A stretch of DNA of 64,000 nucleotides from Gammaproteobacteria bacterium (GTDB lineage Bacteria > Pseudomonadota > Gammaproteobacteria > SZUA-152). The notes beneath the pieces are model-generated. The model did not search any database and was not told where the DNA came from. It was given only the letters and a program-made list of their open reading frames with translations. Within the stretch, counting starts at the first letter, position 1, and every line of letters begins with the position of its first letter. The position numbers were made by a program, and so were the translations under genes. The stretch lies in assembly GCA_011321815.1 (NCBI GenBank), contig DROS01000046.1, forward strand, positions 1 through 64,000, written 5' to 3'. Below, one piece after another: positions 13,347 through 31,281 of the stretch.

Positions 13347-14900
13347 TTACAATGAAGGCTTCCGCTCTTTCTCAAATTCACCGCCTTTAAATTTTTTCAT
13401 ATAATCACGCAGTGCTGACCTTACTTTTCCATGAAGAAAATAAAGTCCCATCAGGTTAGGGATTGCCATGAGTAAAATCATTAAGTCACTGAAGTTCAGA
13501 ACATTGGGGGCACTGGCTACTGAGCCTAATAAAACGAATAGTAGAAACAGTAATTTATAAATAATGGACGATTGATCTCCAAACAGGTATGACCAACAAC
13601 GTTCACCGTAAAAAGACCAAGCGATCATTGTGCTAAAAGCAAACAAGGTGACACACAGGGTCAATATGATGGGGAACCATGAAATGACACTGCTAAAAGC
13701 TGCGCTGGTAAGTGCTGCGCCTTGTTTGTTTGCAACCAGCTCAGCAGTTTCAGGGCTGTTGTAAACACCGGTAATGATGATGACCAGCGCTGTCATTGTG
13801 CAGATAACGATAGTGTCGATAAAAGGCTCAAGCAGCGCAACAATACCTTCTCGTACGGGATATTTTGTTTTTGCGGTGGAGTGAGCGATTGCGGCAGAAC
13901 CAATGCCAGCTTCATTGGAAAACGCAGCACGCTGAAAGCCGACAATCAAAACACCGATTACGCCACCCAATCCTGCTTCAGGTGAAAAAGCACCTGTGAT
14001 AATGGATGAAAATGCAGCAGGAATTTCAGGCATATTGGTCAGGATAACCCAAAGGCAAGCGGCCACATAAATACCACACATTGTAGGTACAACGGCTTCG
14101 GTAACATGGGCAATACGTTTAATTCCACCAATAATAACTGTGCCGACCAACGTCATCATGACAAGCCCAAAAATCCAGGGGCTGCTTTCCAGCAATGGAA
14201 TGTTTTGCTGTATGATTCCGAGGGACTGGTTGACCTGAAATGCGTTTCCTCCGCCGAAAGAGCCTAAAATACAGAGAATACAAAACAACACAGCCAATAC
14301 TTTACCTAGCCTGGCCCAGCCCATTTCAGCCAGTCCCTGACTTAAATATTCCATGGCTCCGCCCATGATATGACCATCAGGACGAACTTTTCGATACATT
14401 TGCGCTAAAGTGCATTCCGTGAATTTAGCCGTCATTCCAAAAAAACCGGCCACAATCATCCAAAATGTTGCACCCGGACCACCGATACTGATGGCGATAG
14501 CAACGCCAGCGATATTGCCTAACCCTACAGTGGCAGAAAGTGCGGTTGTCAGTGCCTGAAAATGACTGGTTTCACCTAAATCATTTGGGTCGTCATAACG
14601 GCCGCGTACACACTGAACGGCATGTATGAAGGCTCTTATATTAATAAATCCCATACGGAATGTGAAAAAAACTGCACCAACAACGAGCCATGCAACAGCA
14701 AAAGGAAGTTTGTACTCGTCGGTAAAAAATAGAATATCAAAAAATGAAATGGCAGCAATGTAACCGACCAATACCCCAAACCATGTATCAATTATTCCAT
14801 TAAAACCTGCTGTACCCTCAGTAGCAAAAGATTGGCTTGACATCAATAGACTGGAAAACAGTGTGCCGAAAATGAGAGGCCAGTGTATTTTTTTATGCAT
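13347..14900 (-). CDS. AGCS-family sodium:alanine/glycine symporter
   Basis: A 517-residue multi-pass inner-membrane carrier. It has family signatures FQALTTALSATVGLGNIAGV and GGPGATFWMIVAGFFGMTAKFTE, and GFQRAAFSNEAGIGSAAIAH later. It would import alanine or glycine with Na+. Residues 7-27 look like a cleavable signal-like segment, seen in some members. Placed next to betaine-from-glycine genes on the opposite strand and converging with them, it is a plausible glycine supplier, but that link is inferred from position only. A short cytoplasmic tail FKGGEFEKERKPSL ends the protein. Confidence 0.92.
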   Translation of the reverse strand: MHKKIHWPLIFGTLFSSLLMSSQSFATEGTAGFNGIIDTWFGVLVGYIAAISFFDILFFTDEYKLPFAVAWLVVGAVFFTFRMGFINIRAFIHAVQCVRGRYDDPNDLGETSHFQALTTALSATVGLGNIAGVAIAISIGGPGATFWMIVAGFFGMTAKFTECTLAQMYRKVRPDGHIMGGAMEYLSQGLAEMGWARLGKVLAVLFCILCILGSFGGGNAFQVNQSLGIIQQNIPLLESSPWIFGLVMMTLVGTVIIGGIKRIAHVTEAVVPTMCGIYVAACLWVILTNMPEIPAAFSSIITGAFSPEAGLGGVIGVLIVGFQRAAFSNEAGIGSAAIAHSTAKTKYPVREGIVALLEPFIDTIVICTMTALVIIITGVYNSPETAELVANKQGAALTSAAFSSVISWFPIILTLCVTLFAFSTMIAWSFYGERCWSYLFGDQSSIIYKLLFLLFVLLGSVASAPNVLNFSDLMILLMAIPNLMGLYFLHGKVRSALRDYMKKFKGGEFEKERKPSL

Positions 14901-15560
14901 GATAAATCTCCATATAACATCGATTAGTGATGATGATTTTTCATCACGGCGGCCTTCTTAGCTTTATATCATCATGCTGGACTTGTTTTGGGATTCAGGA
15001 AATCGTTGAACCCAGTGAATTCCATGACAAGCCTGAAATGGTGGAAGAGGTTGCTCAATTTCATGTATCAAACAACATTATTGTTCTATTTTTCCTCTCA
15101 TATAGGCCATTTCACCACAGCGATATGTTGTTAATGGGGCAGCATTGATTTGTAACTTTAGTGATTTTAAATGTGGCCGGAAATACAAATAAAACGAGAG
15201 GTTGAAATAGCCGTTAGGTGGTTGTTATATTCTGCTGAATGGGTTTTGGGTGTCCCTGCGAGTCATCCATTTGTAACAAATTCATGGCATGTGATTGAAG
15301 GCCGGATGGCCATAGTTAATCTGATGGAGAGCGGCTTTTGCGTTAGGGTGAATAAGGGACAGACCACAATTAAATTGTAACAATTGTAGTCTGTTGCCTA
15401 TTTTTCTGGAAACCTTGTCCTATGTACCATTGTGGTACGAGAATCATGTGTTTGTTTCAAGTAAGGGAATTAGCGGTTACTACCTTGGGCTGGACGGGAG
15501 TTATGGTGGCCTGCGAACAGTTCAGATGGTTGTTGATTATCTTATGTTTTGGAACTTCTC
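14901..15560. other. 660-bp intergenic region without a convincing gene
   Basis: Three short open frames (60-75 codons) lack ribosome binding sites and recognisable sequence. The only structure I see is the inverted repeat at 15359-15394. Confidence 0.55.
15359..15394. repeat. Imperfect inverted repeat with GGGACAGACCACA end
   Basis: ACAGACCACAATT (15359-15371) and AATTGTAGTCTGT (15382-15394) are inverted copies with one mismatch, with 10 bases between them. The GGGACAGACCAC start resembles hairpin repeats I associate with IS200-like transposases, but that link is from memory. Confidence 0.5.
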
Positions 15561-18106: not shown

Positions 18107-19360
18107 TTAAGCGCTCCATTTCATCCACGCCATTCCGAGAAAAAAGATCACCGTGACACTGAGTGAAACATGGCTGAGCCAGCTGTTACTGTATTGCCCC
18201 AATCGTGCACGGCTGCTGTTCATGATTAATAATGCAACAGCGAGTAACGGTAAAAATGCAGCGCCAACAATACCGTAAAACTGCTGGACTTGTTTAAAGT
18301 CCATCATCAGCCCGAGCATGGGGACAATGGACAGGGCAAATAAATAACCACGATAGGGCCATGCCCGCGTATCAACCGTGACAGCATCAGCCTGTCGTTT
18401 AATAAATAAACGGTAAATGTCAGCAAATAAATAGGGCACTGCCTGCCATACACCAAACAGGCTGCTGAACACTGCGCCAAAGGCGCCGATCAGGAATAAC
18501 CAGCGCCCGGTTTCTCCCAGTGATTGCGCCAGGGTATTGGCCAGCGTGACCATTAATCCGGCACCTTTGCCGCTTAAATCCAGTTGGCTGCCAATGATCA
18601 CCATGGCAATGCCAAACACCGCCGTCAGTAAATAACCTGTTGCCAGATCAATGCGGCAGGTGCGGATATGTTCAACAGAGTCACGGTTTTTTTCCCGTAT
18701 CCAGTAACCGTAACAAAGGATTGTCAATGTGCCGCCCACGCCACCAATCAGTGCAACCGTCCACGCAACACCTTTGCCGTCTGCGTCAGGAATGCCGGGC
18801 ATAACAAGTCCTTGCAGCACCCCGTCAATTCCTGGCCACAACAGGGCGGCGGTGACCAGTACAACCGCGAACATGACGGCGATACTGAAAGCCATGATTT
18901 TCTCAAATAATTGAAAACCACCCAGCAAAACCAGCCCCAATCCCAATAAACTGCTGGCGATGCCGAATATGATTTTGGCCTGAGCGCCATCTTCAAACAG
19001 GGGAAACAAGGCATGTAGTGTCACGCCGCATGCGCTCATCAGCGCCGAACCGACAAAGAATGACCATAGCAATAAATAGGGCAGGAACAGCCAGGCGAAA
19101 ACCGGCCCCAGATTTTGTGCCAGCCCTTCTAACAAAGATTGTCCGGTGGCAAGCTGCCAGCGTGCCAAACCTTCGGTGAGTACCAGTTTGAAAACTGAAC
19201 CGATAACGACAGCCCACAAGATAGCCAGCCCCAATTGGCTTCCAGCAAAACTGGCGGTAGCCAAATCACCGGCTCCGACGCCCGTAGCGGCAATGAGAAT
19301 ACCGGGGAGAATGATTGCGAACAGGCTGGGTTGGTTGTTTTTTATGGTTGTTTTCAGCAT
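18107..19360 (-). CDS. NRAMP-fold transporter with non-canonical TM1 motif
   Basis: A membrane protein of about 417 residues and 11 transmembrane segments with the NRAMP/MntH layout. TM1 reads LPGILIAATGVGAGDLATAS where canonical metal transporters have DPGN; here the aligned residues are GAGD. The TM6 metal-binding MPH-type motif is also not evident (GGVGGTLTILCYGYWIREK). Substrate specificity for Mn/Fe is therefore doubtful; another cation or an organic substrate is possible. I prefer ATG at 19360; an ATG at 19387 in the same frame would overlap the upstream gene by 17 bp. It lies directly downstream of the PH-like gene, same strand. Confidence 0.75.
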   Translation of the reverse strand: MLKTTIKNNQPSLFAIILPGILIAATGVGAGDLATASFAGSQLGLAILWAVVIGSVFKLVLTEGLARWQLATGQSLLEGLAQNLGPVFAWLFLPYLLLWSFFVGSALMSACGVTLHALFPLFEDGAQAKIIFGIASSLLGLGLVLLGGFQLFEKIMAFSIAVMFAVVLVTAALLWPGIDGVLQGLVMPGIPDADGKGVAWTVALIGGVGGTLTILCYGYWIREKNRDSVEHIRTCRIDLATGYLLTAVFGIAMVIIGSQLDLSGKGAGLMVTLANTLAQSLGETGRWLFLIGAFGAVFSSLFGVWQAVPYLFADIYRLFIKRQADAVTVDTRAWPYRGYLFALSIVPMLGLMMDFKQVQQFYGIVGAAFLPLLAVALLIMNSSRARLGQYSNSWLSHVSLSVTVIFFLGMAWMKWSA

Positions 19361-19370
19361 TATAATTTTC

Positions 19371-19877
19371 TCAGAAGTCCCGGCCATAGGCTAATTTATC
19401 TAATAAATCCCCCACTTTGTTGACGTCGTTAACCCCTATAAGGCCAACTTTTTCTACGGAATCATTTTGTAGATTATTTATAAAGGAGTTTGTTGTAAAC
19501 ATTATATTCCCTGAGCCATCATCATTTATCTGTTTTTCAAGGTTTTGTAAATGATAAGGATAATAAGAAGTGAACGATTTAATGCTCATGTCATCCAAAA
19601 TAAGTACTCTTGTATTTGTTATTAAATAGATGGAATTTTTGGATTTGCGGTTCCCTTTTGTGGATATAAAAAATAATAAGGTGAAAAATACGGTATAAAT
19701 TCCAAAATTCAAAGGAACCAGCGATATAAAAAGAACAACCACAACAATAATGAACAATAAATTAAATCTTAAGCTAAAAGACTTTTTTGAAAAAGATTGT
19801 CCAGCCCATGTTACAATTTCACCATTTTCAAGTTCATCCTGTATCCAGGTGAAATTTTTCTTTGATAAGTTAATCAT
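19371..19877 (-). CDS. Small membrane protein with bacterial PH-like domain
   Basis: 168 residues. The start ELENGEIVTWAGQSF matches the opening of bacterial PH/DUF304-like proteins (LxxGExxxWxGQ). Two adjacent membrane helices (about 37-70) follow, then SIYLITNTRVLILDD, the first PH strand pair, and a soluble rest. Biochemical role unknown. Low GC, like the island that follows it. The stop lies close to the start of the NRAMP-like gene, suggesting cotranscription. Confidence 0.65.
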   Translation of the reverse strand: MINLSKKNFTWIQDELENGEIVTWAGQSFSKKSFSLRFNLLFIIVVVVLFISLVPLNFGIYTVFFTLLFFISTKGNRKSKNSIYLITNTRVLILDDMSIKSFTSYYPYHLQNLEKQINDDGSGNIMFTTNSFINNLQNDSVEKVGLIGVNDVNKVGDLLDKLAYGRDF

Positions 19878-19945
19878 AAGATTTATCTTTAGTGAAGTTG
19901 ATTTAAATGTTTTTTTAGCGGGAGGTTATAGATAATGTTTTAATC

Positions 19946-20101
19946 TCTTTGGGTTTAATTCCCCGCTGCTCGCAGCGACTGCCCCGCCCGCGAAACGCTT
20001 TGGGTATTCCGGCATGTTTTTAGCCGGGGAGACGTTATAAATGTTAATACCCCGTCAGCTCGCCTTAAGTGCCTACTGTTGGTGCTGTGGGGTAGTTTAT
20101 T
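19946..20101 (+). repeat. Full copy of the ~160-bp dispersed mosaic repeat
   Basis: Aligns over its whole length with 54259-54426: shared blocks are CTCTTTGGG, CCCCGCTGCTCGC, ATTCCGGCATGTTTTTAGCC, AATGTTAAT and the core TACTGTTGGTGCTG. TCCGGCAT...AGCCGG can form a hairpin. It separates the PH-like gene from the 116-aa gene. Confidence 0.85.
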
Positions 20102-20120
20102 CGGGTGGTTTTTTGGTTGA

Positions 20121-20471
20121 TTATCCGGCTGACACACCAGCCCATAAAAATAAAAGAGATGATTTAGCCAGGGACTCCTGAATGGTTTTTATTGCTGACT
20201 TGTGGTCATCAGTTACTTCAAGGCGAACAATGTCAGGCATGTTTTGTTTATTCCATGTGAATTTTTCACCTAGATAATGAATAAATCCTTCACCTTCCCC
20301 GTTGATGAGTATAACAGTCTCTATTTCTTTATCTGCTTCGAATAGACTAAAGGCTTCTTCGACAGTAATGCAACGAGATGCTGACAGTGAATTTTCAGGA
20401 TCGTTGTTATAGGCATCGGCTAGCTGTTTGTTATCGGTAATAATGATTCGGCATGGGTATACTTCAATCAT
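20121..20471 (-). CDS. Uncharacterised 116-aa protein, last gene of the biosynthetic-type operon
   Basis: I do not recognise this family. The protein looks soluble and alpha/beta: RIIITDNKQLADAYNN, VEEAFSLFEADKEIETVILI, IVRLEVTDDHKSAIKTIQES, with a hydrophobic C-terminus LLFLWAGVSAG. It contains two cysteines. Its ATG overlaps the stop of the asparagine-synthetase-like gene by 8 bp (ATGATTGA), so it is translationally coupled and likely belongs to the same pathway. It could be a partner, carrier or regulator of the synthetase; nothing in the sequence decides. Confidence 0.7.
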   Translation of the reverse strand: MIEVYPCRIIITDNKQLADAYNNDPENSLSASRCITVEEAFSLFEADKEIETVILINGEGEGFIHYLGEKFTWNKQNMPDIVRLEVTDDHKSAIKTIQESLAKSSLLFLWAGVSAG

Positions 20472-21984
20472 GATTTTTTCCTTCTCGATTTAGCAGCCAG
20501 TTATTCAAAGTAATTAACCCATAAAAAAGTAGTGGTGAATCAGTAGCGCTTAGAAAATCAGTATGTTCAAGTATTTCTTCGTTAAAATAACCGGTTGATT
20601 TTAATTCTGTAATATTGATCATCTCAGCTGGCATATTTTCAATAAAATGTTTAAGTGGAATAATAGTTCCAGATTTTTTACGCTTTATGATGCTTTCAGG
20701 TATTTTGCGCTTAAATAATTCATTTAACACCAGTTTTCCGTTGGGATAAGTATATCTTTTTTCATCTTTAAGATGAAATGCAGATTGATAAACGCTCAGG
20801 TTCGTCAATGGATGGTGTACCGATACGCCATATCGTTTTCCAGGATAATAAGATTGCGGAAAAATCATGCCTCCCTGTTTTTCAATAGTGTTGAGATAAA
20901 ATAATTTTCTAAGAAGCTCCCCGGGATAAAATTCGATTTTTTTATTTAGATATTCAATGACATAATCTATCAATTCATTGCCATGGATAAAAATATCATT
21001 TAGCCGGTTGAAAAAACGGCAGTGTGTATAAGCATAAATCCATCCAAGAGATATTTGAGGATGCTGGGCATGCGCGAATAATACACTGGTATTTTTTACG
21101 CCGCCAAAAACAGGGTCTCCTCCCTCACCGGTAATTGCCGTGTTGGATGTTGCCTGCGCCAGAGCATATTTGGCAATAACACAGGTATCAATAACCGGAC
21201 CACTATGTCCCCGGGTAAATTGTTTGTGTTGACGTATAAAATTATCCGGTGAAAGTTGTGCATAGCGCAATGGTACCTGGCAATGTTCAGCTATTTCTCG
21301 GGCATATTGAATCTCTCCATCGCCATATTTACTTAATGCGTCATCATCATAACCCATCGTTAATATTTCAGCAGTTCCGCCATTACGGTTAAAGCAATGA
21401 GCCATGGCGGAAGAGTCAATACCTCCCGAGCACCATATGTCAAAATGCTGATGATTCTTTTGCAGCTTTGATGCTTCTTCAAAAATACATTTTTCAACAT
21501 CATTTATATGGGCATTGTCTGTTTCTTCTATGGGAGTGAACACGCTTTCTTCAGTGATTTTATTGTTTTTGTAATGATAAAGCGTAATATTTTTGCATGA
21601 TTTAATCTCGTTAAATGCAGTCATACCCTGCGGTATATAACCCAATGAAAAATATAATGCCAAAGCTTCTTCAGATAGACTCAAGTTGATGTCATTTTTT
21701 TCAATCCACCAGTCAATATGTAAAATATCATTTGTTAAAAATAATTTACTGTCAGTGTGTATGAATAATAGAGGATATTGTCCAAGATAGTCACGGCCAA
21801 AGGTAATTTGTCGATTTTTTATGTTGACTTCAATTGCAATCCCACGTTCCCGATTAATTAAATCACGGGATGACTTTAAATCTTCAAACCCGGGAGATAC
21901 ATATAAAATATTGTTGGAATACTTTTTTTCAACAAACCCACGCATTTGTATTTTAAAAATATCTAGTTCTATTTCCAGCCACAT
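20464..21984 (-). CDS. Asparagine-synthetase-like ATP-dependent amide synthetase lacking the glutaminase Cys
   Basis: 506 residues. The C-terminal PP-loop synthetase has WCSGGIDSSAMAH (SGGxDS at 186-192), TGEGGDPVFGG (286-296) and a C-terminal IKRKKSGTIIPL segment. It should adenylate a carboxylate and form an amide or C-N bond. The N-terminal half keeps the late glutaminase-fold motif GRDYLGQYPLLF but starts MWLEIELD, without the Met-Cys nucleophile of class II amidotransferases, so it cannot hydrolyse glutamine by the usual route. This recalls beta-lactam synthetases and lasso-peptide cyclases, which use an internal or peptide amine. Start at ATG 21984, 4 bp after the methyltransferase stop. 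Low-GC sequence compared with the housekeeping flanks. Confidence 0.85.
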   Translation of the reverse strand: MWLEIELDIFKIQMRGFVEKKYSNNILYVSPGFEDLKSSRDLINRERGIAIEVNIKNRQITFGRDYLGQYPLLFIHTDSKLFLTNDILHIDWWIEKNDINLSLSEEALALYFSLGYIPQGMTAFNEIKSCKNITLYHYKNNKITEESVFTPIEETDNAHINDVEKCIFEEASKLQKNHQHFDIWCSGGIDSSAMAHCFNRNGGTAEILTMGYDDDALSKYGDGEIQYAREIAEHCQVPLRYAQLSPDNFIRQHKQFTRGHSGPVIDTCVIAKYALAQATSNTAITGEGGDPVFGGVKNTSVLFAHAQHPQISLGWIYAYTHCRFFNRLNDIFIHGNELIDYVIEYLNKKIEFYPGELLRKLFYLNTIEKQGGMIFPQSYYPGKRYGVSVHHPLTNLSVYQSAFHLKDEKRYTYPNGKLVLNELFKRKIPESIIKRKKSGTIIPLKHFIENMPAEMINITELKSTGYFNEEILEHTDFLSATDSPLLFYGLITLNNWLLNREGKNHD

Positions 21985-21988
21985 TTGT

Positions 21989-23530
21989 TTACACCCTTTG
22001 TGCTTTTATTCGTTTATTTTTCTGTATCAGGAAAGTAACAAACATAGAGTTGGCATTTATAATGTCTACAAAACCAAACCCTGTTTTTTTAAAGGTATCC
22101 AGATACCAGAGTAAAGATCGTGGTGTTAATACATTTTTTAACTGGGTGTATTTTTTAAATATTTCATTATCAGTCATTCCACTGTTACGTTTAAAATCAT
22201 CATATAATGAATAAGAGAGTGGAGATGATGTCAGTTTTTCTGTTAAAATAAAAATCCCGTCTTGGTTTAGTGAATGTTTTATTTCCTGTAAATATTGTTC
22301 TCTCTGGTGAATAAAGTGTAATACCCAGTTGGCGATAATGACGTCAAATGGTCCATGCGCTACTGGAAATTCTTCGGAGCATATCAATGTTGCTTTTTTA
22401 AATGATCTATCAAGCATTTTCTGAGAATTATCAACACCAAAGAGGTTGCGGTATCCCTCATTGTGGAGCCGCTTCAATGTTTCCCCTGTTGCACTACCAA
22501 TATCAATAATTTTTGGATTTCTGAAGCCGCACTTATTAACTACTTCTACCGTTTTATCAATAACACGCTGGTAGTCAGGGATTTCCCGCTTGGCTATCGT
22601 TGAGAAATTTTTTGCAACTTCTTCATCAAATTTCCATGATCCGGTTTCCATGCCGAACTGTTGAGATATTTTATTTCTCTCAACCGTGCGTTTTTTACTA
22701 AGAGGGTCGTTTTCCCATGAGCGTCTGAATCCTTTCTTGTCAGGAAGATTGTCTTCAAGACTGCTCAATTTTTTTGAGTCATCTTTCACATAACGAACAG
22801 CAAGCCTCAAGGGGATTTTTGAGTCAGAAATATTTTCATTTGAATAATTGAGCATATGCCTGGTTTTTGGAAATTCGAGTGTGGGTTCATTTTTCCCAAA
22901 ACCATTTAAGCTAAACATAAGGTCCAGTGCCCGAAGGGATGATGTGGCACATATGCCGAGCAAAGATTCCTTTCCATCGGGAAGATTGACTTCCTGTCTG
23001 TGTGTGTATTCCGTTATCAGGGCAGAGGGCGGTAATTTTCCATTACGTATGATTTGTGGATATGTGGTTTCGATGACAATGGTTTCTTTAGCGACTCGAC
23101 ATATTTCATCAATAATATTTTTTGGATCAACAAATAAGTAGATAACGCCAGCCATTAATATGACATCATATGAATCTTCATTTTTTTCTTTGATAAAACT
23201 TCGGATGTCTTGCTGGTAAATATGGGCGCGATTTTTCCAGGGAGTTAGCAGTTTTTGTGATTGTGCTGCATACTCTTTTTGTAATTCGACACCTGTATAA
23301 GATGCTGCACCATGATGCAGCGCCCATTGACCAGCGGCCCCCATGCATGAACCAAGATCCAGAATATTTTTATCCTGAATTAACCATTGGGGCAGCAGCA
23401 CATGTAATTTATCTTCCAACATTTCTTTTGACACAGGGTTGAAGCTCCTGTTTTGTCTGTTATCCAGAAGATAAAATTCTGGGCAATTGTCAAAAACACA
23501 ATGGTTTTTGTGGTTATCTATCATATTCAT
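21989..23530 (-). CDS. Two-domain SAM methyltransferase with CmoA-like C-terminal half
   Basis: 513 residues, two Rossmann methyltransferase domains in tandem. Domain 1 (about 30-260) has ILDLGSCMGAAGQWALHHGA and VILMAGVIYLFVDPKNII. Domain 2 (about 285-510) opens GSWKFDEEVAKNF, matching the GDWTFDERVAEVF opening of E. coli CmoA, then IIDIGSATGETLKRL, and ends with LTEKL, LYDDFKRNSGMTDNEIF and LKNVL, again CmoA-like. CmoA makes carboxy-SAM; the residue aligning with E. coli Arg199 (carboxylate binding, from memory) is Tyr here, so ordinary methyl transfer is also possible. The gene follows the cupin across a 46-bp palindrome and precedes the synthetase by 4 bp. Confidence 0.8.
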   Translation of the reverse strand: MNMIDNHKNHCVFDNCPEFYLLDNRQNRSFNPVSKEMLEDKLHVLLPQWLIQDKNILDLGSCMGAAGQWALHHGAASYTGVELQKEYAAQSQKLLTPWKNRAHIYQQDIRSFIKEKNEDSYDVILMAGVIYLFVDPKNIIDEICRVAKETIVIETTYPQIIRNGKLPPSALITEYTHRQEVNLPDGKESLLGICATSSLRALDLMFSLNGFGKNEPTLEFPKTRHMLNYSNENISDSKIPLRLAVRYVKDDSKKLSSLEDNLPDKKGFRRSWENDPLSKKRTVERNKISQQFGMETGSWKFDEEVAKNFSTIAKREIPDYQRVIDKTVEVVNKCGFRNPKIIDIGSATGETLKRLHNEGYRNLFGVDNSQKMLDRSFKKATLICSEEFPVAHGPFDVIIANWVLHFIHQREQYLQEIKHSLNQDGIFILTEKLTSSPLSYSLYDDFKRNSGMTDNEIFKKYTQLKNVLTPRSLLWYLDTFKKTGFGFVDIINANSMFVTFLIQKNKRIKAQRV

Positions 23531-23548
23531 GAATACACCCCGATTTTT

Positions 23549-23594
23549 ATATACCGTGTCGTTTGAGATTTAAATCTCAAACGACACGGTATAT
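23549..23594. repeat. Perfect 46-bp palindrome inside the operon
   Basis: ATATACCGTGTCGTTTGAGA plus TTT is followed without a gap by its exact reverse complement (AAATCTCAAACGACACGGTA plus TAT), centred on TTTAAA. It fills the spacer between the cupin stop and methyltransferase start. On the plus strand the hairpin is followed by TTTTTGA; on the coding (minus) strand it is followed by AAAAATCGG, so it is not a classical terminator for the operon. It may act as an RNA hairpin stabilising or separating transcript segments, or as a protein-binding site. Confidence 0.95.
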
Positions 23595-23609
23595 TTTTGA
23601 TAAAATAGT

Positions 23610-24281
23610 TCATCCTGTTAAATATGTTCCATGGTACATAGGATGGTTATTTTCAAGATTTCCAACTGAGCTGAAGATATGCAACGGCAAGACAAGTAAA
23701 TGATCACCATCGGTTTCAAAATGATGTGGACACATTTTTTGGAGGATGAGTGATTTCCCAGGGTGAAGTTCTTCAGTTATACAGTTTTCCCCCATTCCAA
23801 CAATACAGTTCCCTGTACCGGAAAGTATGTAAACCACTCGGGCCGTTGAATGAATATGATGTGCTTGCTCTGATGAATAGGGCGGAATATCCAGCAATTG
23901 TAATGTTGGGTCTCCCGGTCTTTCTGGTGGAAATATTTGCTTTGTTGAGCAACCATTAACATAAGGCAGACTGGTTTTTTTTGTTATCGTTGATGATTTT
24001 TCCTCTGGCGTATATCCACGAATAATTGTGGCAATATGCTGACTTGTTGTGCTGTCAGGACCACATTTTATGTGTGCAGTTGTTTTGTCTTCTGATAAAT
24101 AAAATAGTGAGTCACCTTTTTCTACTGTAATATGATTGCTGCCAATAAATGTCTTAAAATGATATAAGTCATCAGGTCTTGATTCCACTATCGTGCTTGT
24201 TTCTGCGTCAAAATAATCAACACCATAAAAATGGGCGGTTTTTTTGATATTGTCCGGGTTATTATTCATTGGTATTTTCAC
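23610..24281 (-). CDS. Cupin-domain protein
   Basis: 223 residues. The C-terminal half has a cupin metal site: EQAHHIHSTARVVYILSG (motif 1, His pair) and CPHHFETDGDHLLVLPLH (motif 2). The N-terminal half (residues 35-75, with YHFKTFIGSNHITVEKGDSL) may be a second, degenerate barrel. Cupins in biosynthetic operons serve as dioxygenases, isomerases, hydrolases or ligand sensors; the sequence does not decide. It lies between the NRAMP-like transporter (41 bp) and the methyltransferase, same strand. Confidence 0.75.
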   Translation of the reverse strand: MKIPMNNNPDNIKKTAHFYGVDYFDAETSTIVESRPDDLYHFKTFIGSNHITVEKGDSLFYLSEDKTTAHIKCGPDSTTSQHIATIIRGYTPEEKSSTITKKTSLPYVNGCSTKQIFPPERPGDPTLQLLDIPPYSSEQAHHIHSTARVVYILSGTGNCIVGMGENCITEELHPGKSLILQKMCPHHFETDGDHLLVLPLHIFSSVGNLENNHPMYHGTYLTG

Positions 24282-24322
24282 TCCCTAATATTGCTTCTGT
24301 TTTCACAGAGATACTTTCATTT

Positions 24323-25615
24323 TTATCGGGTAATGATCAGCCACAGGTAAGCAATACTGAACAATGTCATAATTGTGATGCCGAAACGACTCCACAAGGT
24401 CATTAAATTATTCGGCCTGTCGGTTTTCTGAATGGTGTTTCCGTGCATTACCTTGAAGTTGATATAGGCAATAATGGGCGCTGAAACGAAAGAAACAATG
24501 GTGGCAATGGTAACGATCATTCCCATGGCTCCTGACACGTTTTTGATGATCAAAAATACACTGATGGTGCCAATGACTGCTGCGAGCAATATGGTGCGGT
24601 ATACTACTGTTGAAGTATTTCCCGGCAGCTCATGGTTACCTTTGTTTTTCCAGATGCAGTAGCTTTCCTGCAAGGTTCGAGGATACGCATCCAGGCAGGT
24701 CAGGGTGGTGCTGAACATCGTCGCCAGGGCTGCTATGCCAATCAACGGATACGCCCAGCTCCCCAACGAATCCGTATACATATTAATGAGCTGACCCGCA
24801 AAAACCGACCCGATTGCTGAAGGCGGTTCATTGCTGCCAAACATGACCAGTGCGCCGAGTGATAAAAAGGCCATGGCTAAAAGGGCGGTACCAAAGAAAC
24901 CTACCCGAAAATCCAGCATTGCCTTGCGCAGAGAGGCGCGGGTTCCATTGCTTCGGTTGGCTTCTTCGGACCAGACCGAATGCCAGATGCTGACGTCCAT
25001 TGGTGCGGGCATCCAGCCAAGAAAAGCCGCTAAAAAAATAATGTCTGCATATTCATAAAGGCTGAAAAGGGGCGTTGCATCGGGATGAATGCCACCAGGG
25101 GACACTAATAATACAGTGGTCAGTGCGGTGATGGTGGTCAGTGTTAAAATGATAATTACCGCTTTCATTACCTTGTCCAGCATGCTGTATTGCCCAACAT
25201 ACAAAATAATTGCTGCGGCAAGGAGGACCATCATCGCAGGAAGGTGGGGCATATATTCTACGGGCACCTGAAGACCAAAAAAATGTATGGCGATTGAACT
25301 GGTGACAATGGTCACCGCAGCTTGAATCAGGCACATGGACAATACTGTCATGACAACATAAACCGCCAATGCCCATTTTCCAAGGTCGTAGTATCCATGC
25401 AAAATATTACGCCCGGTCAGGGCGGTATATTGAGGGCCAAACTTATAGAATGGATACTTGATAAGATGGATCAAAGGGATCAGCAAAAGAAAAATATACT
25501 GATAGCTTGCGCCCGCTTTGGTGGACATGACCAGGTGTGACACGCCGACCGCCGCACCGGCATAAAGCAATCCAGGACCCAGTGCGGATAAGGTTTTTGT
25601 CAGATGGTTTACCAT
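24323..25615 (-). CDS. NRAMP-fold transporter of the 'GVSHLV' type
   Basis: 430 residues, about 11 transmembrane segments, NRAMP layout. TM1 is LGPGLLYAGAAVGVSHLVMS, lacking the DPGN metal motif. TM6 is LGWMPAPMDVSIWHSVWSEE, retaining MP and HS but with PMDVS in place of the usual metal-coordinating stretch. Such proteins are annotated as NRAMP-like metal transporters, but the changed ligands make another substrate plausible. As first gene of the operon it may import a precursor or export the product. A pair of LytTR-type operator repeats lies about 100-130 bp upstream of its start. Confidence 0.8.
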   Translation of the reverse strand: MVNHLTKTLSALGPGLLYAGAAVGVSHLVMSTKAGASYQYIFLLLIPLIHLIKYPFYKFGPQYTALTGRNILHGYYDLGKWALAVYVVMTVLSMCLIQAAVTIVTSSIAIHFFGLQVPVEYMPHLPAMMVLLAAAIILYVGQYSMLDKVMKAVIIILTLTTITALTTVLLVSPGGIHPDATPLFSLYEYADIIFLAAFLGWMPAPMDVSIWHSVWSEEANRSNGTRASLRKAMLDFRVGFFGTALLAMAFLSLGALVMFGSNEPPSAIGSVFAGQLINMYTDSLGSWAYPLIGIAALATMFSTTLTCLDAYPRTLQESYCIWKNKGNHELPGNTSTVVYRTILLAAVIGTISVFLIIKNVSGAMGMIVTIATIVSFVSAPIIAYINFKVMHGNTIQKTDRPNNLMTLWSRFGITIMTLFSIAYLWLIITR

Positions 25616-25711: not shown

Positions 25712-25745
25712 CAAATGGTGGTATGTTGGTACAAGTGGTTGTTAT
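25712..25745 (-). promoter_or_regulatory. Paired LytTR-type operator repeats upstream of the NRAMP/cupin operon
   Basis: On the minus strand ATAACAACCACTTG and ATACCACCATTTG are direct repeats whose CC pairs lie exactly 20 bp apart (25738 and 25718). The half-sites ACCACTTG and ACCATTTG match the repeats at 28372-28426 and 30152-30207. They lie about 100-130 bp before the 25615 start, a normal activator distance. Confidence 0.6.
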
Positions 25746-25825
25746 CCGGGGGTGGGAGGGGAGGTGTTGGGAATGTATAACCAGGTGTGGGTTCCCATGG
25801 AGCATGGGAACCAGGGGCAGGCGTA

Positions 25826-26542
25826 TCAGGCAATCGAGGGAAAATTATCCATAAAATTCCGGCTGACCGGTATGGTGTGATTGCCGTAGGTGGAGATTTG
25901 TCCCAGGCCATTATCCAGTTTTTCGATATATTTTATATAGTCTGGGTTTATCATATGTTGCCGGTGGCAACGTTTTAACTGGCTGTTGTCATCAAACACC
26001 TTGAGTGGCAAATTGGTTTGAAATTCCTGGTCACTATCACCCGTGACAAGGTGTACACCCGTTGTCGGGCTGGAATAGGCGTGAATGATTTCTTTGACGT
26101 TGATCAGGTAATACCGGTTTCCCTGATAACAAGGGACAAATTTCAGTTCGGTGGGAAATGCTTCGGTAATAACCGGCTGTGGCTGGTGGTTTTCTTTCAG
26201 GCGTGAGAGCGTTATATTCAGACGGTCGGTTTTTACCGGTTTAAGTAAAAAATCGATGGCATTTTTTTTGAATGCCTCAATGGCATATTCACCATGGGCG
26301 GTAACAAATACAATCCGGGGCATATTGTCTTTGTCCAGCATGCTGAGCATTTCGATGCCGGATATTTTGGGCATGTTGATATCAAGAAATATAACATCAG
26401 GATGTTTGCTGTTGATGTCTCGTATTGCCTCAAATGCATTGGCGCATGCGCCGATGATATCGAAGGCCTGGTCGGCGCCGATTTTCTTTTCCAGGTCTTC
26501 GCGGGCATTGGGTTCATCATCAACAATCATTGTGCGGATCAT
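25826..26542 (-). CDS. LytTR-family response regulator (BtsR/YehT-like)
   Basis: 239 residues. Receiver domain: MIVDDEPNAREDLEKK (acidic pair), DVIFLDINMPKISG (phospho-accepting Asp), FVTAHGE and FLLKPVK (conserved Lys). The C-terminal LytTR DNA-binding domain (about 135-235) contains YLINVKEIIHAYSS and CHRQHMINPDYIKYIEKLD. Start at ATG 26542, overlapping the kinase stop by 4 bp (ATGA) with AGGAGC just upstream; a 15-codon upstream extension is inside the kinase gene and unlikely. It is the probable ligand of the 20-bp spaced repeats in this region and the probable activator of the neighbouring operon. Confidence 0.92.
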   Translation of the reverse strand: MIRTMIVDDEPNAREDLEKKIGADQAFDIIGACANAFEAIRDINSKHPDVIFLDINMPKISGIEMLSMLDKDNMPRIVFVTAHGEYAIEAFKKNAIDFLLKPVKTDRLNITLSRLKENHQPQPVITEAFPTELKFVPCYQGNRYYLINVKEIIHAYSSPTTGVHLVTGDSDQEFQTNLPLKVFDDNSQLKRCHRQHMINPDYIKYIEKLDNGLGQISTYGNHTIPVSRNFMDNFPSIA

Positions 26543-28266
26543 GCTTGCTCCTTGCTTTTTGGCAGGTGAATATTGACCCGCGTCCATTGTTCAGGTTCAC
26601 ATTGTATATCAATACCATAGTGGTCGCCGTAACGTATCTTGATGCGTTCGTCTATTTTCAGTCCGATGCCGTTTCTATTGGTTTTTTCATATAAACCGGC
26701 ATTGTCTGCAACGGTCAGGGTAAAACTGTCATTGTGTTCGACACAGGTGATGTTGATAATACCGGTATTCAGTAATTCACTGGTGCCGTGCTTGATTGCA
26801 TTTTCAACAATGGGTTGTAATGTAAAAGCCGGTACAGTTTGTGTCAGCAGGTGATCAGGAATGTCTATCTGAACCTGCAAGCGGTCTTCAAACCGCGCTT
26901 TTTCTATTGCCAGATACGATTTTACATGTTCAAGCTCATCGCCCAACATTGTTATGTCATTTGATGTTTCCAGGTTTTTCCTGAAATAATCAGACAGGTA
27001 ATGTAATAAATTGCGTGCCCTGTCAGGTTGTTTTCCCACAATGTGGCCAATGGTGGTTAGCGTATTGTAAAGAAAGTGCGGGTTAATTTGTGTTACCAGT
27101 ATTTTGTATTGGTCCTGAATACGCAGCTCCCGCTGCAACTCATAATGCCCTGCCAGTATTCTGTTGGATAACAAATGCGCCAGATTTTCTCCCAGTTTCC
27201 GGTTGATATTGCGGAATAACTTATTTTTGGGCTCATACAGTTTAATGGTGCCAACCACTTCATTATTGGCGTCGTCTCTTAGTGGAATAATCAGTGCTGA
27301 TCCCAGTTCGCAGGATTTTCGCAGTTGGCACTGGTAGGTTCTGTTAATTCCATCGGCAAACAGCACCTTGTTTTCTCTGATGACTTTAAATGTGTCATCG
27401 GAGGAAATAAGTGATCCGGGGCGATGATGATCTTCACCCAGTCCGGCGAATGCCAGCAGTCTGTTCCTGTCGGTAATTGCAACGGCACCCACCCGGGTTT
27501 CGTGTTGAATGATGTCGGCGATTTTTTTGCTGGATTCCTGATTAAACCGGCCGTAAATAATGCTGGCGGTTTTGTCGGCAATACGCCACGCGGCTGCACT
27601 GCTACTGAGTTCATCGCAGGCCCGTTTTTGTTCTTTGATCATATACATGATCAGGGCAGCGCCAGCAGAGTTGGCAATCAGCATGGGCAAGCCGATTTCT
27701 TTTTCCAGATTCCAGGCTTCCACTCCATTGCCTGTATACACCCCGAATAACAGAATGATGGTGATATGTCCCAGTCCGACAACGAATGCGATGAGCCCGA
27801 CAAAACGAGGAGAGAACAGTGTTTCGGTTTTACCTTTACGCGACAGGTAATGATGCACGCAGCCAGCAAACAGCCCTTCAAAGGTTGTGGCAACCGCACA
27901 GGCTATGTCTATGTAATTGATAGGGTCATTGATGGACGACATGCTGAAAACCCGGTGAATACCGCCAGTAATCCCCACCAAAAAACCGACGACAGGGCCG
28001 CCCAGCAAGCCACCCAGAACAGCACCGATTGCCCGTGTGTTGGCGATGGCGTCATCTGTTTGAATGGAGGGTTCGCTGAGGGTTGTTCCTAAAATACAAA
28101 AACCGGAAAAAACCAGATAAATAATTGCTTTGTCCGGCAGTGAGAGCGAGTTGTTTACCAGGGCAGTGAACACCGGTGTCCTGGTGAACAGATAGGCCAG
28201 CCCCAGAAACACCAGCATGTGCTGTAACAGGGGAGCGATGTGTTCCAGAAACAAAATGTCTTGCAC
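26539..28266 (-). CDS. LytS/BtsS-type sensor histidine kinase
   Basis: 575 residues. The N-terminal 5-6 transmembrane helices (about 10-215) contain the 5TM-LYT signature TRAIGAVLGGLLGGPVVGF and TGGIHRVFSM. A GAF-like domain (about 235-365) follows, then the His_kinase domain with ILVTQINPHFLYNTLTTIGH (phospho-His) and a catalytic domain with LQPIVENAIKHG and NGIGLKIDERI. BtsS in E. coli senses pyruvate; the ligand here is unknown. It is coupled to the LytTR regulator by a 4-bp overlap. Operator-like repeats lie 106-160 bp upstream of its start, suggesting autoregulation. Confidence 0.93.
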   Translation of the reverse strand: MQDILFLEHIAPLLQHMLVFLGLAYLFTRTPVFTALVNNSLSLPDKAIIYLVFSGFCILGTTLSEPSIQTDDAIANTRAIGAVLGGLLGGPVVGFLVGITGGIHRVFSMSSINDPINYIDIACAVATTFEGLFAGCVHHYLSRKGKTETLFSPRFVGLIAFVVGLGHITIILLFGVYTGNGVEAWNLEKEIGLPMLIANSAGAALIMYMIKEQKRACDELSSSAAAWRIADKTASIIYGRFNQESSKKIADIIQHETRVGAVAITDRNRLLAFAGLGEDHHRPGSLISSDDTFKVIRENKVLFADGINRTYQCQLRKSCELGSALIIPLRDDANNEVVGTIKLYEPKNKLFRNINRKLGENLAHLLSNRILAGHYELQRELRIQDQYKILVTQINPHFLYNTLTTIGHIVGKQPDRARNLLHYLSDYFRKNLETSNDITMLGDELEHVKSYLAIEKARFEDRLQVQIDIPDHLLTQTVPAFTLQPIVENAIKHGTSELLNTGIINITCVEHNDSFTLTVADNAGLYEKTNRNGIGLKIDERIKIRYGDHYGIDIQCEPEQWTRVNIHLPKSKEQA

Positions 28267-28371
28267 TGAATGGGCTCTCCTTAAACCGGTGTTACATGGA
28301 AGGCATATATAAAAACAGAATATTGGGGTCGAAATACAGGGTGGATCAAGGGTAATATTTATCGTTTTGGT

Positions 28372-28426
28372 TGTACATACCGTTCAGGCAGTATAACAAC
28401 CGTTTAATCACTATAACGACCACTTG
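28372..28426 (+). promoter_or_regulatory. Three LytTR-type operator repeats upstream of the sensor kinase
   Basis: ACCGTTCA (28379), ACCGTTTA (28399) and ACCACTTG (28419) repeat at exactly 20-bp steps, each preceded by an ATAAC/ACAT-type stretch (ATAACAACC, ATAACGACC). The array lies in the 375-bp gap between kinase start and symporter end; nothing else is recognisable in that gap. Orientation is opposite to the kinase gene. Confidence 0.6.
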
Positions 28427-28641
28427 CCGGATTCCCGCTTTATATGCCCGCTGTCATGCAATAAATATGATGATACCCAAATTTTAGCTTTAGCCTTAAG
28501 TGTCACAGGTATATTGACGGATATAAACAAATAATTACTGTGGTTGCGAAAGGTTTGTAAATCATCGTAAAAATCAGATTGATCAAAATGCGCTCAACTT
28601 TTCCGCAAAATCAATGAACTTTCGTACAGGTGTGGTGCATT

Positions 28642-29922
28642 TCATGAAGAAGGGAGATGTATTTCTTCCTGGCCTGCATCGGGATCATTAAAAATATCCA
28701 TCGAAAGATTGTTTTCGCTGCAAGCAATAATCGTGGCGATGGTGATATCGCCTGTAACGTTTACTGCTGTGCGTATCATGTCCAATATACGATCTACCCC
28801 CAGAACCAAAACAACACTTTCAACAGGCAAGCCGACCTGATTGAATATCATTGTCAACATCGCCAGCCCAAGTCCGGGCACTCCGGCAGTGCCAATGGAT
28901 GCCAGTATGGTCATGGCTATGACGGTAAGATAATCAATGATGCCAAGGTCGATTCCATAAATATTTGCAATAAATACTACGGCAACGCTGTGAGTAATGG
29001 CCGTGCCGTCCATATTAAGGGTTGCGCCAAAAGGAACGACAAACGAGGCGGTTGTATTGTCAATACCCAAACGCTTTTCTGCGGTGTGCAGTGTGACGGG
29101 AATAGTTACATTTGAGCTTGAAGTGCTGAACGCATAAATTTGTACTGAGCGGATTCTTTTCATAAAGGTCGCAGGGCTGACATGACTCAGCAGTTTTAAT
29201 AAAAACATCAATGTTCCCGTGGCGTGAAGAATCAATATAACAGCCACAAGTATAAAATAGTGGAGCATAGGTAAAATTAATTCTATTCCTTGCTCTGAAA
29301 ATGTTTTGGCCATTAATGAAAATATACCGATAGGCGCCACTTGCATTACCACAGCGATGACTTTCATCATTACTTCATTCATTTTTTTGGAAAATTCAAT
29401 AATAGGTTTCCCACGATCTCCGGTTATTAATATACAAATGGAAAATAAAATAATAAAAAATATGATCTGCAACATATTTCCTTCCACATGGGCTGCAACA
29501 GGGTTTTGTGGTATCAAATCAATAAAAATCTGCGTCCATGACGGCGCAACTTGTGAGAGGGGAGTGCTGGGGGATATTTGCGTTATATCAAATCCCTGTC
29601 CCGGTTTGATAATGACTGACACAGTTATGGCCAGCGTCGTTGCCAATGCCGTAGTCAGCATAAATAACAGAAACAGTTTAATGCCGATACGTCCCAGAAT
29701 ATCAATATCTCTTAATCCACCAATACCGCAAATAAGGGAAAATGTCAGTAATGGAACCACCAGCATTTTCAGTATGCTGATAAAAATACTGCCTATGACA
29801 TGAAAAACCCCATTAACCAGATATTGTTGGAAAAATGCTATATCGCTGGCAAGTGTGTTGATTAAAATGCCAGTTAACAAGCCGCAAATCATCCATATCA
29901 CAATCCTTGTTGTCATGCTCAT
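28642..29922 (-). CDS. DAACS-family dicarboxylate/amino-acid:cation symporter
   Basis: 426 residues of the glutamate/aspartate/C4-dicarboxylate symporter family (GltP/DctA/SstT). The signatures are AFSTSSSNVTIPVTLHTAEK (serine-rich re-entrant loop HP1), PFGATLNMDGTAITHSVAVV (TM7 NMDGT) and DRILDMIRTAVNVTGD (TM8 substrate-binding Asp and Arg). RTAVNVTGD with Arg nearby favours an acidic or polar amino acid; I cannot choose further. It follows the same direction as the kinase operon and shares the operator-bearing gap at its 5' side, so it may feed the same pathway. Confidence 0.92.
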   Translation of the reverse strand: MSMTTRIVIWMICGLLTGILINTLASDIAFFQQYLVNGVFHVIGSIFISILKMLVVPLLTFSLICGIGGLRDIDILGRIGIKLFLLFMLTTALATTLAITVSVIIKPGQGFDITQISPSTPLSQVAPSWTQIFIDLIPQNPVAAHVEGNMLQIIFFIILFSICILITGDRGKPIIEFSKKMNEVMMKVIAVVMQVAPIGIFSLMAKTFSEQGIELILPMLHYFILVAVILILHATGTLMFLLKLLSHVSPATFMKRIRSVQIYAFSTSSSNVTIPVTLHTAEKRLGIDNTTASFVVPFGATLNMDGTAITHSVAVVFIANIYGIDLGIIDYLTVIAMTILASIGTAGVPGLGLAMLTMIFNQVGLPVESVVLVLGVDRILDMIRTAVNVTGDITIATIIACSENNLSMDIFNDPDAGQEEIHLPSS

Positions 29923-30151
29923 TTGTTTGTGCCTTCCCTGCTGAAATAATTATTCTTTATGCTCTATAGGGGGGGTGCGTGTAGCTTGCGTAATGAATAA
30001 AGGTGTAATAAGCGTTTTCATTGAAGTAACTTTACTTTAGTTGGTGTCACAGGGAAAGTTTACAGTATATATCCAGGATGGTTGATATTTAGGCCTGGTT
30101 TCACGCTTTATTTACTTCATGGCTTCATTGTTATCCTTTCAGTAGGCCGAA

Positions 30152-30207
30152 GGTACATACCGTTTAACGGGTATACCAACCACTTAATGGCCGTGACCAC
30201 CACTTAT
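30152..30207 (+). promoter_or_regulatory. Three LytTR-type operator repeats between symporter and barrel genes
   Basis: ACCGTTTA (30159), ACCACTTA (30179) and ACCACTTA (30199) are spaced at exactly 20 bp and preceded by GTACAT, GTATACCA and GTGACC. They lie 150-200 bp before the plus-strand gene at 30360 and 230-285 bp before the minus-strand symporter, so either could be the target; orientation matches the plus-strand gene. The remainder of the 437-bp gap (29923-30359) holds no gene that I see. Confidence 0.6.
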
Positions 30208-30359
30208 GTGATTTTCTCTTTACGAAAATGATCAAACCATTATTGTGTTTGCTGAGGACTTTGTGATCAGAGATATCGGATTGTTATGGCAACAATTTAT
30301 CTGATTGATAAAAAATCATATTTTTTATCACAAATTTTTATCAGGGAGAAATATAAAAA

Positions 30360-30935
30360 ATGTATAAAAACAGTCATTCAGCCGTAAATTTTACAACATT
30401 AATCGTGCTATTGCTGTTAAGCGGTGCGGTGCATTCTGCGGGAAGCATAAGTGTTATTTCCGGGAATAAAACGCTCGACTGGCGACAGGTGGAGTCACAG
30501 AGAGAGTCTGGTTTTGGTTTCGAGCTTAACGATCCAGGTTGGGATACGGCTATGGTAGTAACTTATTTAAGCTCAGAGGAATCGACAACGCTTGAAGGAT
30601 TTGGCGGTGCTATAAAAGCAACGGGCAAAACCACCGAGATCGGTTTTGGTGCGAGAAAATATTTAACAGAAGACAGTGTGCGTTTTTTTCTTGAAGGTGG
30701 GGCGGCAGTTATCTCTGGAAGCCTTGAATTAGCGATTCCTGGTGAATCAGTTTCCGATTCTGCTTCAACCATAGGGTTTTGGTTTGGTGCAGGAGGGGAA
30801 ATTATGTTGGAGGATATAATGAGCGTCGGATTCTTCAGCCGTGTATCGAGTGCGCCAGTGACATTGTTTGATATTGATAGTGATATTGGCGGTACACATT
30901 TTAATCTTTATGTGTCGTATCATTTCGGCCGGTAA
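30360..30935 (+). CDS. Small outer-membrane beta-barrel protein (191 aa)
   Basis: An N-terminal signal peptide (about 1-27, ending SGAVHSAG) is followed by alternating amphipathic strands: TEIGFGARKYL, RFFLEGGAAVIS, TIGFWFGAGGEIML, MSVGFFSRVSS and a final NLYVSYHFGR. This is the pattern of an 8-stranded OmpA/OmpW-like barrel. No enzymatic motif is seen. GGGAG precedes the ATG by about 11 bases. The operator-like repeats upstream suggest that it belongs to the LytTR regulon, where it could be a porin or adhesin. Family not identified. Confidence 0.65.
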   Translation: MYKNSHSAVNFTTLIVLLLLSGAVHSAGSISVISGNKTLDWRQVESQRESGFGFELNDPGWDTAMVVTYLSSEESTTLEGFGGAIKATGKTTEIGFGARKYLTEDSVRFFLEGGAAVISGSLELAIPGESVSDSASTIGFWFGAGGEIMLEDIMSVGFFSRVSSAPVTLFDIDSDIGGTHFNLYVSYHFGR

Positions 30936-30994: not shown

Positions 30995-31207
30995 ATGGAA
31001 ACTTTAATATTTATTATAATTATTGTTATCATTTTCTTTGTTCTTGGCAGTGGAGGTAGGGGTGGCGGCGGTGGTGGCGGTTGGTATGGAAGTGGTGGAG
31101 GACATGGTGATGGCGGAGGCGGAGGCGGTGGTGGTGGTTGCGGTGGAGGTGGAGGTGGAGGTGGAGGTGGTTGTGGAGGCGGAGGTGGTGGTTGCGGTGG
31201 AGGGTGA
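30995..31207 (+). CDS. Single-pass membrane peptide with Gly/Cys-rich tail (70 aa)
   Basis: Residues 4-18 are a hydrophobic helix (LIFIIIIVIIFFVLG); the rest is almost pure glycine with scattered W, Y, H, D and three cysteines in GGGCGGG contexts. GGGGG lies 6 bases before the ATG. The DNA is a GGN-rich low-complexity tract, so the frame could be open by chance, but the non-Gly residues and membrane segment at the correct end argue for a real short protein, possibly surface-exposed or metal-binding. It follows the barrel gene by 59 bp. No family assigned. Confidence 0.55.
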   Translation: METLIFIIIIVIIFFVLGSGGRGGGGGGGWYGSGGGHGDGGGGGGGGGCGGGGGGGGGGCGGGGGGCGGG

Positions 31208-31281
31208 TCATTTTGATGATTGAATTCCCAGCCGCGTGCTGCTGATGTTGCCAGATTTTGCCCGCGTAGCATTTGGGGTGT

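Follow-up and report, generated by a model that had tools for sequence, protein, structure and literature searches.

Direct repeats of an ACCRYTYR half-site occur in register at three places in the window (the whole 64-kb stretch of gammaproteobacterial DNA analysed here). Judged by sequence comparison, they are very probably the operators of the adjacent BtsR-type LytTR response regulator, which would activate a small regulon of transport and envelope genes. Such a regulon had been proposed in the initial annotation, and the reading is supported by the score of the regulator against the BtsR model, by the BtsS-like kinase, by the likeness of the arrays to the one at E. coli btsT and by the conservation of the arrays with the two-component system. 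The two genes of the system and the repeats are located as follows.

25826..26542, minus strand: LytTR response regulator of the BtsR type, 238 aa, with Response_reg and LytTR domains
26539..28266, minus strand: LytS-type histidine kinase, BtsS-like, with a 5TM-5TMR_LYT sensor and a His_kinase domain
25712..25739, minus strand: operator pair, ACCACTTG / ACCATTTG, 20-bp step
25753..25760, minus strand: third half-site position of the NRAMP array, degenerate (CCCTCCCA), 21 bp upstream of the pair
28379..28426, plus strand: triple operator array, ACCGTTCA / ACCGTTTA / ACCACTTG, 20-bp steps
30159..30206, plus strand: triple operator array, ACCGTTTA / ACCACTTA / ACCACTTA, 20-bp steps

All eight half-sites that had been claimed are found in the sequence at their given positions and in an exact 20-bp register, with the CC at 25738/25718 on the minus strand and at 28380/28400/28420 and 30160/30180/30200 on the plus strand. 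The form ascribed to them, ACC(A/G)(C/T)TT(A/G/C), holds apart from the half-site at 28379 (ACCGTTCA), which deviates slightly from TT. ACCRCTYA is the BtsR half-site consensus and was derived independently of the window. Three half-sites had been said to match it fully or with one change: the match stands, while the count was too low, as two of the eight are full matches, five have a single change and one has two, so that seven lie within one change of the consensus. In the window, just two half-sites of the NRAMP array are good; at the counterpart of 25753-25760, likewise 21 bp upstream, the relatives carry CCCGCTCA, CCCGATCA, CCCGTTCA or CCCGTTCG. The functional unit appears to be an array of three half-sites at 20- or 21-bp steps.

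The claim that the shared register is hard to explain by chance was borne out by pattern searches of the whole 3.58-Mb genome, in which ACCRYTT-N13-ACCRYTT occurs four times, always within the three arrays. The outcome named beforehand as speaking against the proposal was an equal frequency at random genomic sites; the genome matches are confined to the three arrays, and the reversed-pattern control gave one match. Across the 64-kb window, pairs of ACCRYTT at steps of 8-40 bp are found only at step 20 and its double, 40. In 24 related genomes, the reversed pattern matched 34 times (mean 1.4 per genome), which gives a chance expectation of ~0.002 in a 4.5-kb stretch. With ACCRCTYA, allowing at most one mismatch per half, four pairs lie at step 20, whereas other steps average 0.24. 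The two triple arrays reach matrix scores of 36.7 and 33.0, against a best score of 23.7 among 200 dinucleotide-shuffled windows, with a matrix trained on the same half-sites that it scores.

The class sample comprised 369 genomes, with the first places listed for genomes with many matches. Among the matches listed, the exact 20/21 triple is found in the two arrays of the window, at one site in genome G252 and in 7-bp satellite DNA. The G252 triple, the sole other non-satellite among the listed matches, lies away from any LytTR locus and was taken as a chance occurrence. Heptamer satellites (e.g., ACCATTC and ACCGCTT; genomes G140, G164, G270, G272, G365 and G387) mimic LytTR patterns with a 21-bp step and need filtering in scans.

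That the regulator is BtsR-like was confirmed with the NCBIfam model PRK11697 for BtsR (score 272.9 bits, cutoff 246). Its domains are recognised at E-values of 1.9e-24 (Response_reg) and 7.7e-15 (LytTR), and it shares 40% identity and the LytTR motifs CHRQ, N and PVSR with BtsR of E. coli. The kinase is 49% identical to BtsS and keeps R72, R99, C110 and the phosphorylated histidine H382 of the latter, with Ala in the place of S113. In BtsS, the pyruvate site includes R72, R99, C110 and S113, and changes at the Cys and Ser positions may alter specificity (PMC10653868). By analogy, the S113 to Ala change may shift the ligand of the kinase away from pyruvate. A class-wide search with E. coli BtsR at E ≤ 1e-55 returned three matches in two genomes only, with only weak array-like scores around them, and three matches in the class are too few for a general survey.

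Published accounts of BtsR describe two half-sites with a 13-bp spacer (a 21-bp step) rather than triples at 20. At the E. coli btsT promoter, we found GCCGCTCA, ACCGCTTA and ACCACTCA at -184, -164 and -143 from the start codon, i.e., at steps of 20 and 21 and reading toward btsT; the copy at -184 adds a third half-site to the two of BtsR, 20 bp farther upstream. The stretch corresponds to the "yjiY YehT bs" oligonucleotide (PMC4847170), and BtsR activates btsT (PMC10653868). The half-site spacing had been called similar to that of BtsR; the step is 20 in the window and 20 or 21 overall (21+20 in relatives, 20+21 in E. coli). A step of 20 does not separate the arrays from BtsR, because E. coli btsT itself has a 20-bp step. 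With BtsS/BtsR (YehU/YehT), the system shares the NCBIfam equivalog of the regulator, the kinase similarity and half-sites at 20/21 steps. It differs in that the arrays of the window are 20+20 (or 21+20) and flank the kinase operon itself, in the residue at S113, and in that BtsS/BtsR targets btsT, whereas the predicted targets here are the NRAMP-like/cupin operon, the barrel gene and perhaps the SDF symporter. The triple arrays suggest that the third half-site at btsT deserves attention.

For sites of LytTR proteins, a repeat length of 9-11 bases and a spacer of 11-13 bases have been described (PMC4847170). A comparable layout is seen in the established operators of the CO-metabolism LytTR proteins RcoM1, with triplets of 8-bp direct repeats separated by 12-13-bp spacers, and CoxC, with three repeats (PMC11347149); their half-site is however TTCNNGCA, both are single-protein sensors outside any two-component system, and CoxC represses. 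HdrRM/BrsRM of Streptococcus mutans likewise use direct repeats upstream of the -35 box, with half-sites such as ACCACTTAT and ACCGCTTAT (PMC6193735), but there are two half-sites 21 bp apart, and the regulator lacks a receiver domain and is held by a membrane inhibitor. YpdA/YpdB is also a LytS/LytTR pair binding direct repeats (PMC4847170), with a different half-site, GGCATTTCAT.

The kinase is carried by seven related genomes, four of the same genus (G003, G006, G007 and G009) and three of another genus in the same family (G019, G020 and G021), and a homologue of the NRAMP-like gene was present in all seven kinase-bearing relatives searched. In scans of their loci, arrays turned up beside the kinase, and also at the NRAMP-like promoter in those relatives for which this stretch was available. 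The array at 28379 is conserved in G003, G006, G007 and G009 (partly degenerate) and at locus L018, the operator at 25712-25739 in five relatives, and the array at 30159 has a partial counterpart in G003, upstream of the symporter and a broken barrel gene. Within the genus, kinase arrays have 20+20 and NRAMP-like arrays 21+20 steps; in G019-G021, the steps are 21+20 at the kinase and, at the NRAMP-like promoter, 21+20 (G021) or 20+20 (G020). Zero-mismatch 20/20 triples were sought in 20 relatives, and all nine found lie at the kinase, in the barrel/symporter region or at a transporter gene; none was found in nine relatives without the system. An array precedes the gene of a DASS transporter at L019, and arrays lie close to the local SDF copies of the window, G003 and G002; around the distant SDF paralogues scanned, no convincing array lies near the gene. 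L018 keeps a good kinase-side array, and a barrel homologue was not found in its genome; in G001, which has a barrel homologue and no kinase in its assembly, there is no array at that homologue.

The genome encodes exactly two LytTR proteins, the second one on contig C23, and LytTR proteins can share half-sites; it is nevertheless very unlikely that the arrays bind this second protein instead of the adjacent BtsR-type regulator. They occur in genomes with the BtsR-type pair, adjoining the pair or at its neighbours, and the C23-type protein is also found in G010 and G011, two genomes of at least 95% completeness that have neither the kinase nor a perfect triple array. The exception to clean co-occurrence is G002, which has arrays and in which the C23-type protein was the only LytTR protein found; its assembly, in which the kinase was not found, is 73% complete.

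Pairwise identity among the kinase arrays of six genomes is 81% in the half-sites, 69% in the spacers and 45% in the flanks, and nearly all changes in the half-sites fall within R/Y-tolerant positions; in the alignment of the NRAMP-like promoter, the contrast is weak (half-sites 79%, spacers 76%, flanks 72%). That the half-site letters and the register are kept while the flanks have diverged argues against repeats conserved for some other reason, be it bent promoter DNA or the remnant of a duplicated intergenic segment, and against chance. Like arrays are found ahead of the E. coli target, too, and of NRAMP-like, DASS and SDF genes, which are unrelated to one another. A duplication of one intergenic segment on symporter entry may indeed have given rise to the arrays on the kinase and barrel sides, yet taken as a whole this account is barely credible, and we retain the operator reading.

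The genes around the arrays, and a candidate promoter recognised by sequence comparison, are the following.

18107-19387, minus strand: second NRAMP family protein, clear Pfam NRAMP match
20464-21984, minus strand: asparagine-synthase-like protein, presumed operon
21989-23530, minus strand: methyltransferase with a double methyltransferase domain, presumed operon
23610..24281, minus strand: cupin-domain protein, after the NRAMP-like gene in the presumed operon
24323..25615, minus strand: NRAMP-like transporter, very divergent, first gene after the operator at 25712-25739
28642..29922, minus strand: SDF-family (Na:dicarboxylate) symporter (PF00375, 6.3e-115)
30219..30246, plus strand: candidate promoter TTTACG-N16-TATTGT
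30360..30935, plus strand: outer-membrane beta-barrel-like protein (PF13505, E = 1.8e-5, below the curated cutoff)
30996..31208, plus strand: short glycine/cysteine-rich ORF after the barrel gene

The name NRAMP given to the product of 24323..25615 is weakly supported: a Pfam search relaxed to E 0.5 yields no match, and the NCBIfam Nramp score is below cutoff. A PDB sequence search with this protein returned noise only, and a structure prediction from six close homologues (mean pLDDT 36) was unusable. In the presumed operon (18107-25615, minus strand), two divergent NRAMP-family transporters enclose the cupin, methyltransferase and asparagine-synthase-like genes. This inner cassette looks like a variable, possibly biosynthetic insert, because it is present in L053 and L054 and was not detected in L052 and L055.

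Because the half-sites are asymmetric, their orientation is informative. They read toward the NRAMP-like gene (the pair lies 96 bp upstream of its ATG), the barrel gene, the DASS transporter gene of L019 and the SDF copy of G002, as they do at btsT. The array at 28379..28426 had been described as upstream of the sensor kinase, which is correct in position (112 bp from the kinase start); it is oriented away from the kinase, as are the kinase-side arrays in every genome examined. Where barrel homologues adjoin the kinase, in G019 and G021, the kinase-side array faces the barrel homologue, which is followed by a gene for a glycine-rich protein. For the array at 30159..30206, the earlier placement upstream of a symporter/barrel pair holds for the barrel gene and is doubtful for the symporter, whose start lies on the opposite side, 236 bp off; orientation, the candidate promoter and synteny all point to the barrel gene.

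The first base of the candidate promoter is exactly 20 bp downstream of that of the third half-site in the 30159 array, and TTTAC(G/A)-N16-TATTGT recurs at an equal 20-bp offset downstream of the kinase arrays in G003, G006, G007 and G009; it is plausibly a sigma-70 promoter fired from the array. Its -35 box would begin 12 bp past the end of the third half-site. This absence of overlap bears on whether the sites, as operators, could serve repression (or mere bending of DNA), as with CoxC, whose three repeats act in repression by overlapping the -35 box (PMC11347149). As btsT is moreover activated by BtsR from a like array (PMC10653868), we consider repression unlikely and favour activation.

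From these comparisons, we infer an ancestral unit in which one array lay between the divergent kinase and barrel genes and faced the latter. The array at 28379 would be a remnant of that control region, and a later entry of the symporter into the kinase-barrel gap, in the window and in G003, would have placed it between two arrays. In G007, fragments of SDF, barrel and glycine-rich genes lie at this place. Control of the kinase and the symporter by the arrays beside them is uncertain, because the adjacent arrays read away from both. In G021, a glycine-rich protein comes after the barrel, and the ORF at 30996-31208 may be what is left of it in the window. At L057:11021-11677, a protein with a glycine/cysteine-rich tail and no Pfam match follows the barrel, with homologues in L053, L054, L056 and L058.

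In the mechanism that we propose, the BtsS-like membrane kinase would sense a small extracellular metabolite and phosphorylate the regulator. The phosphorylated regulator would bind side by side on three direct ACCRYTYR half-sites, spaced by roughly two helical turns (20 or 21 bp) along one face of the DNA, and would recruit RNA polymerase to the sigma-70-type promoter just downstream. Its targets would be the NRAMP-like/cupin operon, the barrel operon (with the glycine-rich protein in relatives) and, in some relatives, SDF or DASS-type transporters; across the relatives, the predicted targets encode transporters or envelope proteins. A further probable target is the kinase-regulator operon; it starts next to the divergent kinase/barrel array. 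The sites, their register, their conservation, their occurrence with the system and their match to the btsT array are observed; from these, we infer binding by the regulator, an activating effect in place of repression, control of the kinase operon by its own product and the ligand.

The whole is very probably a BtsR-type operator set, kept in relatives, with a small regulon and a changed list of predicted targets. Between E. coli and an uncultured, distantly related lineage of Gammaproteobacteria, the target genes differ but the operator word of the pyruvate-sensing BtsR family appears conserved, and three ACCRYTYR half-sites at 20/21-bp steps make a readable code for predicting BtsR-type targets. 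Through that code, an unassigned cassette of transporter and biosynthesis genes is tied to a sensor whose ligand-binding site is known. Only tentatively do we entertain the bolder proposition, that a BtsSR-type system has been re-wired, through the triple 20-bp operator code, from pyruvate uptake to NRAMP-like transporters, the cassette, the barrel and exchangeable organic-acid symporters, with S113A marking a non-pyruvate ligand.

One further site in the window was kept as a weak candidate only.

15195..15243, minus strand: weak candidate fourth array, CCCATTCA / ACCACCTA / ACCTCTCG, steps 21+20

It lies upstream of a Na:alanine symporter gene (13347-14900). As a firm fourth array it was rejected, its score of 17.4 being reached by about one-sixth to one-twelfth of shuffled windows, and it was not found upstream of the 66-67% identical Na:alanine symporter orthologues.

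In the relatives, a short contig of G006 (C98, locus L013) carries a second copy of the 5′ end of the kinase gene (94% to the window protein) together with a perfect array, representing either a duplicate locus or a strain mixture. In G003 (L052:8026-8583) and G007 (L054:11255-11803), a gene for a PEP-CTERM protein is situated between the regulator and the NRAMP-like gene; half-site-like repeats at 21-bp steps precede it in both genomes, and it is a possible extra target.
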